Below are positions 59,625-64,000 of a DNA stretch of 64,000 nt, one piece after another. The first letter of the stretch is position 1. Every line of letters starts with the position of its first letter. The translations under genes were made by a program, and so were the position numbers. The stretch lies in the NCBI GenBank assembly GCA_016936455.1, contig JAFGXV010000039.1, positions 1 through 64,000 on the forward strand, read 5' to 3'. The stretch comes from Desulfuromonadaceae bacterium. GTDB lineage: Bacteria > Desulfobacterota > Desulfuromonadia > Desulfuromonadales > Desulfuromonadaceae. Under the pieces are notes generated by a model. It was not told where the DNA came from and made no database searches. It worked only from the letters and a program-made list of their open reading frames with translations.

Positions 59625-60005
59625 ATGAAAACCATAACCGTTGTCTTTTATGATCGTCAGTTTGCTGGTGATTGGCGTTATGCGTTTGATGAGGAGGCCC
59701 TGCCGGCCTTTTTTTCCGGGCTGAATCAGGAGTTGCAGGGGTGTGGCGTCGCGTTTGACTATCAGTTCGAGCGCTGTATTACCATGCGGATTAACGGCTA
59801 TGGCGACCTGCTCAACAGCATTCGTATCCGTTCTCTGGAAGACGGTTTCAGCAGCCTTTGTCTCAGTCAGGTGGTCGGTGCCAGTCAGGATGCCAATCTG
59901 CTGGCTGATATCAAGCGAGGTGTCCGGCGTGTCGCCTTCTCGCCCGAGAGCATTGTGCCGCAAGACAGTGCCCAGGTCTGCCACAATTGTGGCTGCGGCT
60001 GTTGA
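59625..60005 (+). CDS. hypothetical protein with C-terminal CHNCGCGC cluster
   Basis: 126 aa ORF between sua5-like gene and terminator; C-terminus VCHNCGCGC. Confidence 0.65.
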   Translation: MKTITVVFYDRQFAGDWRYAFDEEALPAFFSGLNQELQGCGVAFDYQFERCITMRINGYGDLLNSIRIRSLEDGFSSLCLSQVVGASQDANLLADIKRGVRRVAFSPESIVPQDSAQVCHNCGCGC

Positions 60006-60013
60006 TCCTATTG

Positions 60014-60040
60014 CGCCCGGCAGCTTCTGCCGGGCGTTTT
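60014..60040 (+). terminator. rho-independent terminator
   Basis: CGCCCGGCAG-CTT-CTGCCGGGCG TTTT. Confidence 0.85.
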
Positions 60041-60142
60041 ATGTTTTGTGAGAATAATCTTTTCATTCCTAACTTTTTTTGTCATTAATGGGGTTCTTTG
60101 TCGGGTGGCAAGGGCCCATGAACTTATCGTGACAGGAGTATT

Positions 60143-61894
60143 ATGAACTATCCGGTATGGTATCTTCCTGAAATAGGTGGCGGTTTGCTCATGGTCCTGA
60201 TTGCCGTCACCCATGTGTTCGTCTCCCATTTTGCTGTGGGAGGAGGGCTCTATCTGGTGGCGACCGAACATCGCGCCCGGCGTGCCAATGACTTCGAGAT
60301 GCTCGAGTTTCTCAAGAAGCACACCAAGTTCTTCATGCTCGTGTCCATGGTTTACGGTGGTGTGACCGGTGTTGGCATCTGGTTTACCATCGGCTTGATC
60401 CAGCCGGACGCCACGTCGGACCTGATTCATGCTTTCGTATTCGGCTGGGCAGCGGAATGGGTGTGGTTCCTGGTCGAGATTGTGGCCCTGCTGGTCTATT
60501 ACTACCGTTTTGACAGTTTGGACGAACGCACCCATCTGGCGGTGGGATGGATCTATTTTGTCGCGGCGTGGATGAGTCTGTTTCTGATCAACGGCATCAT
60601 CGATTTCATGCTGACACCGGGCGAGTGGCTGCAGAATCATAATTTCTGGTCCGCCTTTTTCAATCCGACCTTCTGGCCTTCGCTGCTGTTCCGTTTTGCT
60701 TTCGGGACCCTGCTGGCGGGCGTCTACGCGTTTTTTACCACGGCCAAAGTCTCTTCGATCTCCTTTCGCCTGCGTATGACGCGCTATTCTTCTCAGTGGT
60801 GCCTGATTTCGTTGCTGGTCGTTCTGGTCGCCGGCGCCTGGTATGTCGCTGCGCTGCCCTCCGGCTCCCAGGCGCTGTTTGCCCTCTCGCCAACGATCCG
60901 GCACTCCGTTTTGGTTGGGGCGGCCGGACTCCTGGTTTTCAGTGTGCTGGTGACCCTGTTTACCTTCCTGAAGCCGTCATGGCACAACATGGGTATTGCG
61001 ATCCTGGTAGCGGTCTGCAGTTTTCTGGTGCTGAGTGCTTTCGAGTGGATTCGCGAGGCGGATCGCCGGCCCTACGTGATCAACAACTATCGCTACTCCA
61101 ACGGGATTGCGGTCACCGATGTCACCCAATTGAATCAGGGGTTTCTGGCGGCATGCCGCTGGAGTCCCATTGCGGAGGTGACGCCGGATAATGTGATGCA
61201 GGCCGGACAACTTCTATTCAAATTTCAGTGTTACGCCTGTCATACCCTGGACGGGGTGAATAATGACATCCGACCGCGTACGGCTTCGGCTTCGTTCAAC
61301 GGCATGGTCAGTTATCTGGTTACGATGCACGAAAAACGTCCCTTTATGCCCCCTTTTGTCGGTACTGAACTGGAACGCAAGGCACTGGCGGCCTACCTGG
61401 TGGGTGAGCTGCATGGCAAGGAAGCGCCGGTTTTTGCTCCGCCGAGGGTGCAATCCCCCGGAGAAGTGTTGTTCGAAAAGCATAGCTGTTCCATGTGCCA
61501 TGCTGCGCAGCTGGTGTTCGACTGGGCCCAGGGACAATCCGTTGAGAGCCTCGAGCAGGGGCTTTCAACCCTCAGTCAGATTGATGGTTCCATGAAAGAT
61601 TTTGCCGGCAGCGCCCAGGAGCGTCGGCAGCTGGCCGATTATCTGCTTGCACCGCAGGACCCTGTCATGCCCACGCTGGATGGTCGTCAGCTTCTGGATG
61701 ATCAGTGTGTCATGTGCCATGATGCCCAGCTGACGGTTGATTGGGCCGCGGCGCTCAGTCCCGAGCAGATTCGTCAGGGTCTGCTGACATTGAGCCAGAT
61801 CAACAGCAGCATGGAGGACTTTAGCGGCAGTGAGGCGCAACTTGATGCCTTGGTTGCCTACCTGGAGCGGGCAGGAAAGGAAGGTGTTCAATGA
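60143..61894 (+). CDS. cytochrome bd-superfamily CydA-like protein with C-terminal triheme c domain
   Basis: multi-TM N-half with CydA-like pattern (FGWAAEWVWFLVEIVALLVYYYRFDSLDERTH; EWIREADRRPYVI resembling the E..GRQPW loop) and three CxxCH motifs (CYACH, CSMCH, CVMCH). Confidence 0.75.
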   Translation: MNYPVWYLPEIGGGLLMVLIAVTHVFVSHFAVGGGLYLVATEHRARRANDFEMLEFLKKHTKFFMLVSMVYGGVTGVGIWFTIGLIQPDATSDLIHAFVFGWAAEWVWFLVEIVALLVYYYRFDSLDERTHLAVGWIYFVAAWMSLFLINGIIDFMLTPGEWLQNHNFWSAFFNPTFWPSLLFRFAFGTLLAGVYAFFTTAKVSSISFRLRMTRYSSQWCLISLLVVLVAGAWYVAALPSGSQALFALSPTIRHSVLVGAAGLLVFSVLVTLFTFLKPSWHNMGIAILVAVCSFLVLSAFEWIREADRRPYVINNYRYSNGIAVTDVTQLNQGFLAACRWSPIAEVTPDNVMQAGQLLFKFQCYACHTLDGVNNDIRPRTASASFNGMVSYLVTMHEKRPFMPPFVGTELERKALAAYLVGELHGKEAPVFAPPRVQSPGEVLFEKHSCSMCHAAQLVFDWAQGQSVESLEQGLSTLSQIDGSMKDFAGSAQERRQLADYLLAPQDPVMPTLDGRQLLDDQCVMCHDAQLTVDWAAALSPEQIRQGLLTLSQINSSMEDFSGSEAQLDALVAYLERAGKEGVQ

Positions 61895-62946
61895 ATTCTC
61901 TGATTCCGACACCGGATATTCTGCCGGTTGCACGGGGGATTTTTGAGTTTTTACTGTTGCTCACCTTCCCGTTGCATCTGCTGGTGATGAACAGCTTAAT
62001 CGGCAGCTTGCTGATCGCTGGCTGGGCGCAATGGCGAGGGGGGGACGCCGGGCAGCGGCTGGCGTATCGTCTGGCACAGATTATCCCGTTGCTGATCGCG
62101 TTCACCATCAACCTCGGCGTGCCGCCACTGCTGTTTGTCCAGGTCCTCTACGGCCACATGATCTATTCCAGTTCCGTCCTGATGGGGATTTTCTGGATTG
62201 GTGTGATTCCGATTCTGCTGATTCTGTACTATGGGGCCTATTTTTATGATTTCCGTTTCTGGTCACTGGGGCGCCGGGGTCTGCCCGTTCTCTTCTCGGT
62301 TCTAATGCTTGGGCTGGCCGTAGCCTTTATTTTCAGCAACAACATGACCCTGATGCTGACACCGGAGGTCTGGCCGCACTATTTCAATTCGGATAATGGG
62401 AATTTCCTCCATTTAGGCGAGGTGTCCCTGTTACCGCGCTATCTGCATATGATGGTTGGCGCCAGTGCCGTTGGCGGATTGGCTGTGGCATTTTTGAGTG
62501 GATTGTGGCGTAACGAGGACCCGGAGATGGTCGATTGTGCCAGTTCCTACGGACTGCGCCTGTTTATTGCGGCAACGCTGGTGCAGATTGTGGTGGGCAG
62601 CTGGTTTTTGCTCTCCTTGCGTGCCGATGTGCTGTCGCTCTTCTTTGGTCAGCATCCGATGGCGACAGCGTTTTTTGTCGCGGCTCTGCTGCTGGTTGTT
62701 GTGGCGCTGCACAGTGCCTTGAACCGTCGGGTGGGGGCAACCTTTGCCTCGGTTGTTGTTTTGCTTTATCTGATGAGTTTTCTGCGGGCCTATGTGCGCG
62801 ATGGCTACCTGATCCGAACCTTTGTCGAACTGTCTACGGCATCCGTTCCTGATTATTCACCGCTGTGGCTGTTCGTTGGCACCCTGCTTGTTGGACTGGT
62901 CCTGGTGGCGTGGATGGTCCGTGTTGCCTTTTGTTGTAAGGAGTAG
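61891..62946 (+). CDS. polytopic membrane protein, probable second subunit of the bd-like complex (CydA-like)
   Basis: ATGA overlap with previous gene; FPLHLLVMNSLIGSLLIAGW and LLPRYLHMMVGASAVGGLAVAFLSG TM segments with His. Confidence 0.65.
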   Translation: MNSLIPTPDILPVARGIFEFLLLLTFPLHLLVMNSLIGSLLIAGWAQWRGGDAGQRLAYRLAQIIPLLIAFTINLGVPPLLFVQVLYGHMIYSSSVLMGIFWIGVIPILLILYYGAYFYDFRFWSLGRRGLPVLFSVLMLGLAVAFIFSNNMTLMLTPEVWPHYFNSDNGNFLHLGEVSLLPRYLHMMVGASAVGGLAVAFLSGLWRNEDPEMVDCASSYGLRLFIAATLVQIVVGSWFLLSLRADVLSLFFGQHPMATAFFVAALLLVVVALHSALNRRVGATFASVVVLLYLMSFLRAYVRDGYLIRTFVELSTASVPDYSPLWLFVGTLLVGLVLVAWMVRVAFCCKE

Positions 62947-62949
62947 GGG

Positions 62950-64000
62950 ATGAAACAGACCGGTACTGGGGCGATTTCTCTGACGGGGCACTGTTTCTGG
63001 GTCGGTGCCTACGATCCGCAATTGCGCATCTTTGATGAACTGTATCCGACTGAAAGCGGGACGACCTATAATGCCTATCTGATTCGTGGTGAGCAGAAAA
63101 CGGTCTTGGTCGACAGTGCTGAAGAGCGCTGCTTCGATGAGTTTTTCTCCAGACTGAGCGCCTGCTGTTCCGTGGACGAGATTAATGTGATCGTGACCAA
63201 CCATACGGAGCACGATCATTCCGGTTCCATCGGTCGCCTGCTGGAAATGAATCCCGGCATCGAAGTCTGGGGATCGCCTACGGCGATGCGTTTTTTGCGC
63301 GAGCAGCTCAATCGTGATTTCAATGCCCATGCGGTCAAAGACGGAGAACGTCTCGACCTGGGCGGCCGTACGCTGCGGTTTATTCTGGCTCCCTTCCTGC
63401 ACTGGCCGGACACCCTCTTTACCTGGGTTGAGGAAGAAGGGCTGCTGATTTCCGGGGATGCCTTTGGTGCCCATTTCTGCCCGCCGGCGGGTCGGATTTT
63501 CGATGACGAGGTTGGTGCGTTTTACAGCGACTTCAAGCTCTATTTCGATACCATCGTTCGTCCCTTCAAGAGCTTTGTTCAGAAAGCCCTGAAAAAGGTG
63601 GAGGGGCTGCCTGTCCGCATGATCTGCCCGTCCCATGGTCCGGTCCGCAGGACGGCTGTCGCCGAATCGCTTGCGGCCTACAAGGGTTGGTCGCAGCAGC
63701 AATGCCTGGAAAAAAGAGAAATTGTTTTGCTGGAACATTCACCCCATGGCACGACACGGGCGATGGGGGATCGTGTGGTGCGGCAGCTGGAGGCGGCAGG
63801 TTATGCGGTGCAACGCTTTGCCGCAGTGACGTTGGAAGAGGAAGCTTTTCAGTCCGCTCTTGAGTGTGCTGATGGACTGATTGTCGGCGCCGCAACCATC
63901 AACCGTGATGCCGGTCCGCCGGTGTGGCGGGCACTGACCCATTTGTCCACGGTGACACCAAAAAACCGGCTGGCGATTGTCTATGGGGCCTATGGCTGGA
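62950..64000 (+). CDS. FprA-family A-type flavoprotein (flavodiiron O2/NO reductase), truncated by window end
   Basis: Open + frame from ATG 62950: NHTEHDHSGSIGRLLEMNP (HxExDH), LISGDAFGAHF, MICPSHGPVRR, start of flavodoxin domain; absent from ORF track because no stop in window. Confidence 0.9.
   Translation, partial: MKQTGTGAISLTGHCFWVGAYDPQLRIFDELYPTESGTTYNAYLIRGEQKTVLVDSAEERCFDEFFSRLSACCSVDEINVIVTNHTEHDHSGSIGRLLEMNPGIEVWGSPTAMRFLREQLNRDFNAHAVKDGERLDLGGRTLRFILAPFLHWPDTLFTWVEEEGLLISGDAFGAHFCPPAGRIFDDEVGAFYSDFKLYFDTIVRPFKSFVQKALKKVEGLPVRMICPSHGPVRRTAVAESLAAYKGWSQQQCLEKREIVLLEHSPHGTTRAMGDRVVRQLEAAGYAVQRFAAVTLEEEAFQSALECADGLIVGAATINRDAGPPVWRALTHLSTVTPKNRLAIVYGAYGW

Follow-up and report, generated by a model that had tools for sequence, protein, structure and literature searches.

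We analysed a window of 64,000 nucleotides from Desulfuromonadaceae bacterium (contig JAFGXV010000039.1 of assembly GCA_016936455.1, which is 79% complete in 64 contigs). At its 3' end lie three co-directional genes: gene A for a CydA-like membrane protein with a haem-c tail, gene B for an all-helical membrane protein, and a gene for a flavodiiron protein (FDP) (Table 1). A first-pass annotation had described a 4-nt overlap and a 3-nt gap between these genes, and both were borne out: A and B share the ATGA at 61891-61894, and 3 nt separate B from the FDP gene. The FDP reading frame extends beyond the window, and the contig contains all of it (L003:10951-12174). Reading the sequence by eye, we found a plausible GGAG-like or GGAAGG-like ribosome-binding site ahead of each of the three genes. 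Since a strong terminator-like hairpin parts the small upstream gene from A, A seems to open an operon of its own. Hairpins inside the operon were weaker matches only, occurring at about twice the shuffled rate and all in coding sequence. A, B and the FDP gene are probably co-transcribed in Desulfuromonadaceae bacterium.

Table 1. Features of the locus, in window coordinates.
Feature	Position	Strand	Basis or note
Terminator-like hairpin (11 base pairs followed by a T-rich tail) separating A from the small upstream gene	60013-60037	+	L003:8014-8038 plus 51999
AGGAG ribosome-binding-site-like stretch of A	60134-60138	+	Read in sequence
Gene A (CydA-like 8-helix membrane half and predicted periplasmic three-haem c tail)	60143-61894	+	583 aa
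H24, equivalent to CydA H19 (active-site haem ligand)	60212-60214	+	Alignment
R184, at the place of CydA b558 ligand H186	60692-60694	+	Arg in 113/113
E305-Y311 (EADRRPY), equivalent to CydA E445..GRQPW, active-site motif	61055-61075	+	Alignment
CxxCH c1, residues 363-367, axial M402	61229-61243	+	Motif, homologue alignment
CxxCH c2, residues 449-453	61487-61501	+	Motif
CxxCH c3, residues 522-526	61706-61720	+	Motif
Gene B (all-helical paralogue of A membrane half, predicted bd fold)	61891-62946	+	351 aa
Class A flavodiiron protein gene	62950-64000 in window, ends at contig position 64173	+	407 aa

Two further genes flank the operon in the family of loci to which the window belongs (the window family). 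A small conserved ORF (59625-60005, 126 aa), with a Cys-rich C-terminus (CHNCGCGC) and no Pfam or NCBIfam match, lies 5' of A throughout this family and is kept even at loci without A-B. Every locus of the family also has a gene for a CcdA-like membrane protein (L003:12206-12973, minus strand) that converges on the operon; this protein could have a role in cytochrome c maturation.

To classify protein A, we compared its sequence and predicted structure with known proteins. Pfam matched Cyt_bd_oxida_I in the N-terminal half only (E 8e-11), together with cytochrome-c domains, in agreement with the earlier description of a CydA-like membrane half followed by three CxxCH motifs. A profile of 27 A homologues matched Geobacillus CydA (5doq; E 2e-7). 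The AlphaFold model of A (mean pLDDT 86) was searched against the PDB with Foldseek, and the first 20 matches were all bd chains, the best being 5doq_A (E 1e-6). An NrfD/DmsC-like fold was rejected, as its Foldseek matches were weak (E 0.27 or worse) and ranked below those 20. These results support membership of A in the cytochrome bd superfamily, with the predicted fold of the catalytic subunit. The first-pass annotation had proposed a bd-superfamily oxidase and had named a DmsC/NrfD-like fold as an outcome that would speak against it; the predicted structures of both membrane proteins matched bd chains, and no such fold was found.

We then mapped the residues of A by alignment to the CydA of the same genome, giving CydA residues the numbers that we take to be those of the E. 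coli sites (H19, E99, E107, H186, M393, E445, R448 and P450). The alignment paired H24, E105, E112, E305, R308 and P310 of A with H19, E99, E107, E445, R448 and P450, respectively, indicating that A keeps the di-haem active-site residues H24, E105, E112, E305 and R308. Key active-site residues were unchanged in 112-113 of 113 homologues, a set that includes a few contigs taken twice (e.g. L007 and L103). B adjoined A in at least 110 of the 113 loci, and two of the other three showed B by tblastn; this pairing and the residue conservation argue that the locus is not a product of chance. The ADRRPY stretch had been read as a quinol-loop motif, but it aligned with the E445/R448 active-site region of CydA, and the Q-loop is deleted in A. 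In CydA, the GRQPW motif lies outside the Q-loop and holds the E445/R448 region at the end of helix 8. H29 of A, at a place where CydA has Pro, was kept in 112 of the 113 sequences.

A canonical CydA and CydB are encoded elsewhere in the same genome (C58). This quinol-oxidising pair (qOR) shares with A the fold and the six aligned residues, whereas the whole Q-loop, the M393 region and helix 9 are absent from A, which therefore lacks both the Q-loop and the b558 ligands (H186/M393) of the qOR enzymes and bears a haem-c tail. The model of A contains eight membrane helices, and only every second loop carries positive residues. This topology would place the tail in the periplasm, beside the active-site haems and at the site of the lost helix 9.

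The c1 site and its axial M402 were present in all 112 homologues reaching that region. With the missing Q-loop and b558 ligands, this conservation favours the first-pass suggestion that electrons enter through cytochrome c rather than quinol. From the topology and the missing quinol site, a periplasmic cytochrome c would be the donor to the tail. The tail itself varied, with one, two, three or four small haem-c domains within the order and, in many lineages, one haem plus a heptahaem MtrC/MtrF-like domain (1+7). Such 1+7 homologues (~850-910 aa) are widespread in the phylum, for example at L073:8001-10640 (plus strand) and at L074-L079, L081, L084, L106-L113, L126-L129 and L131-L135; L080 and L083 encode the heptahaem part on its own, in a gene immediately 3' of a one-haem A. 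In the 8-haem forms the gene order is reversed, with B before A. The MtrC-like heptahaem tail could draw on extracellular-electron-transfer cytochromes.

The many MtrC-like tails, and a host order rich in extracellular electron transfer (PMC8235581), would also fit a protein pair that relays electrons or senses redox state within the metal-reducer cytochrome network and is no longer an oxygen reductase, with the MtrC-like fusions as its outlet. We consider such a role improbable, as all 113 sequences keep the active-site ligands, a simple relay would have no use for H24, E105, E112, E305 and R308, and one-haem forms were the commonest (50/113).

To characterize protein B, we searched it against the same resources. 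By sequence it matched nothing in Pfam or the PDB, while the confident structure matches of its model (pLDDT 86) were bd chains only, including both CydA and CydB chains in Foldseek. Alignment of the A and B profiles with hhalign gave a probability of 97.6% (E 5e-12) spanning the whole membrane half. Judged by this alignment, B is a paralogue of the membrane half of A, as in a CydAA'-type heterodimer. The first-pass annotation had said that B did not look like textbook CydB; the lack of a Pfam match agrees with this, and the paralogy with A goes further than was claimed. We rejected B as a CydB family member on these two grounds, and the sole PF02322 gene of the genome, the family of CydB partners, is the one at C58. 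The partner of A is thus by sequence a paralogue, unlike that of canonical CydA, and the pair is closer to the published CydAA' arrangement than to CydAB. The helix-1 histidine H29 of B was kept in 110 of 110 sequences and H186, at or near the b558-ligand position, in 108 of 110. The E445 position, with its alignment column inferred by eye, held Glu, Asp, Ala or Gln, and B appears to lack a full active site.

The third gene had been annotated as a flavodiiron protein, and the results agreed. Pfam recognized the ODP metallo-beta-lactamase fold, alignment to Moorella 1ycf gave E 4e-64, and the diiron ligands H85, E87, D89, H151, D170 and H229 (HxExDH...H...D...H) were all present with a flavodoxin domain, as in class A. 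Like Moorella 1ycf and Desulfovibrio ROO (1e5d), the FDP has the full ligand set and the flavodoxin domain and is without a rubredoxin domain; we found no difference that matters from these class A proteins except the operon context.

We next surveyed the homologous loci for linkage of the FDP gene to A-B. Within the window family, A-B-FDP occurred in the own genome, G039, G028 and G029, and A-B without FDP in L052-L056; in L095 and L096 this place held an FDP gene but no A-B. Outside it, each of the six loci of family f36 and a single f105 locus had an FDP gene close by, on the strand of A-B; most homologue loci elsewhere had no FDP nearby. The survey ruled out a fixed A-B-FDP module as a general rule. 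The O2/NO-scavenging module with the FDP (FprA) that the first-pass annotation proposed was supported in part: the loci have an O2-defence context, but an FDP is not regularly found beside A-B. The FDPs of the three linked groups form three separate branches and their A proteins three separate clades, indicating that the linkage arose independently in three lineages. In a rough model that took 25 families, each genome having 1.5 to 3 FDPs, the chance of two independent FDP links outside the window family was ~0.003 to 0.05, a figure that is suggestive, not conclusive.

All three gene states at one place in the window family would be expected if A-B and FDP were mere neighbours where O2-related genes collect, with no functional coupling. 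The independent linkage to different FDPs in f36 (6/6 loci) and f105, and the 3-nt spacing of B and FDP in the window, make this rather unlikely. It concerns coupling only and is compatible with the function we favour for A-B below.

The f36 stretch encodes a Fur-family regulator, rubrerythrin, superoxide reductase, ferritin, peroxiredoxin, A, B, rubredoxin and FDP, in a list pooled over contigs not all of which show every gene. Of all the evidence, this oxidative-stress island speaks most strongly for a place of A-B in O2 defence. A-B stands beside a second oxygen-scavenging enzyme in the window lineage and in two unrelated lineages, which points to defence against oxygen. Apart from this, in the f36 peroxiredoxin gene (AhpC/TSA; L144:3696-4400, plus strand) the exact position of the catalytic Cys is occupied by an in-frame TGA (FTFV-TGA-PTE), and the product is likely a selenoprotein.

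We consider it likely that A-B is a cytochrome-c-fed, two-subunit O2 reductase of the bd superfamily that serves in O2 defence. The computed basis for this reading is the fold, the residue pattern, the missing Q-loop and b558 ligands, the paralogy, the pairing, the operon layout and the repeated FDP linkage; from these we infer haem occupancy, electron flow, O2 as the substrate and the role in O2 defence. Electrons would enter the periplasmic tail and pass from c3 to c2 to c1, and then to a membrane di-haem site held by H24 and E305 with E105, E112 and R308. By analogy with established bd-oxidase chemistry, which is O2 reduction, O2 would be reduced to water at this site, with the cytoplasm presumably supplying the protons, as it does in cytochrome bd. 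B would complete the heterodimer with A. With the soluble FDP alongside, O2 (or NO) could be cleared at the membrane by A-B and in the cytoplasm by FDP. Against the favoured reading count the canonical CydAB of the genome, since A-B is not the sole possible O2 sink, and the lack of an FDP link at most loci together with the modest chance figure given above; no haem-copper oxidase was found in the genome, a weak result at 79% completeness. More tentatively, and short of an even expectation, A-B may be a modular oxidase with which anaerobes defend themselves against O2: its haem-c tail would be remodelled to suit different donors, and it would have teamed repeatedly with FDPs, O2 being cleared on both sides of the membrane.

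Flavodiiron proteins reduce NO as well as O2. A-B might accordingly be a nitric oxide reductase that passes electrons from cytochrome c through the di-haem site to NO, with FDP as the cytoplasmic NO reductase; the best solved FDP match, 1ycf, was deposited as a nitric oxide reductase, and E. coli flavorubredoxin came next. We think this improbable, because the f36 island consists of genes for defence against O2, superoxide and peroxide and bd chemistry as established acts on O2. NrfA was also not found in the genome, which weighs little at 79% completeness.

The cytochrome bd superfamily was reportedly analysed by Murali, Gennis and Hemp in 2021. According to later papers that draw on the 2021 analysis and treat mostly the OR-N enzymes of nitrite oxidisers, the superfamily has qOR, OR-C and OR-N branches, OR-N comprising putative cytochrome-c-oxidising CydAA' enzymes (PMC10839748, PMC12342949, PMC13189123). 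The lack of a quinol site marks the non-qOR branches in those papers (PMC13189123, PMC10839748), and A has none; we regard A-B as a putative member of OR-C. As far as these sources go, A-B shares with OR-C/OR-N the bd-type core, the missing quinol site, the likely cytochrome c donor and a CydA paralogue as second subunit (CydAA'), and differs in its three-haem tail and the FDP in the operon, the relatives having 1 to 4 or 1+7 haems. The kind of enzyme is already known, while a limited literature search turned up no account of the haem-tail series, the MtrC-like fusions or the repeated FDP linkage. A published inventory of Desulfuromonas oxidases lists caa3, cbb3 and CydAB, without the A-B pair (PMC8235581). 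If A-B is indeed a cytochrome-c-fed bd oxidase, it would be an overlooked O2 sink in many strict anaerobes rich in cytochromes c, and its forms with 1, 2, 3, 4 and 8 c haems would be a natural series for testing exchange of the bd donor side.

A matches were found in 49 of 136 genomes of the order and, in some form, in 101 of the 395 genomes sampled from the phylum (~70 strong), with B adjoining A in 59 of 60 further phylum loci examined. The pair is mostly found in Desulfobacterota and also on plasmids of Thermus, Agrobacterium and Methylosinus, where the annotation, if visible, reads "cytochrome c" plus "hypothetical protein" or "cytochrome C". Viral or plasmid-borne spread was considered and rejected, as the searches returned no viral homologue and four plasmid records only. 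On the Agrobacterium and Methylosinus plasmids (L124 and L125), the genes after A-B encode an ATP-binding (sensor-kinase-like) protein and then a response regulator, possibly a redox-responsive control unit.
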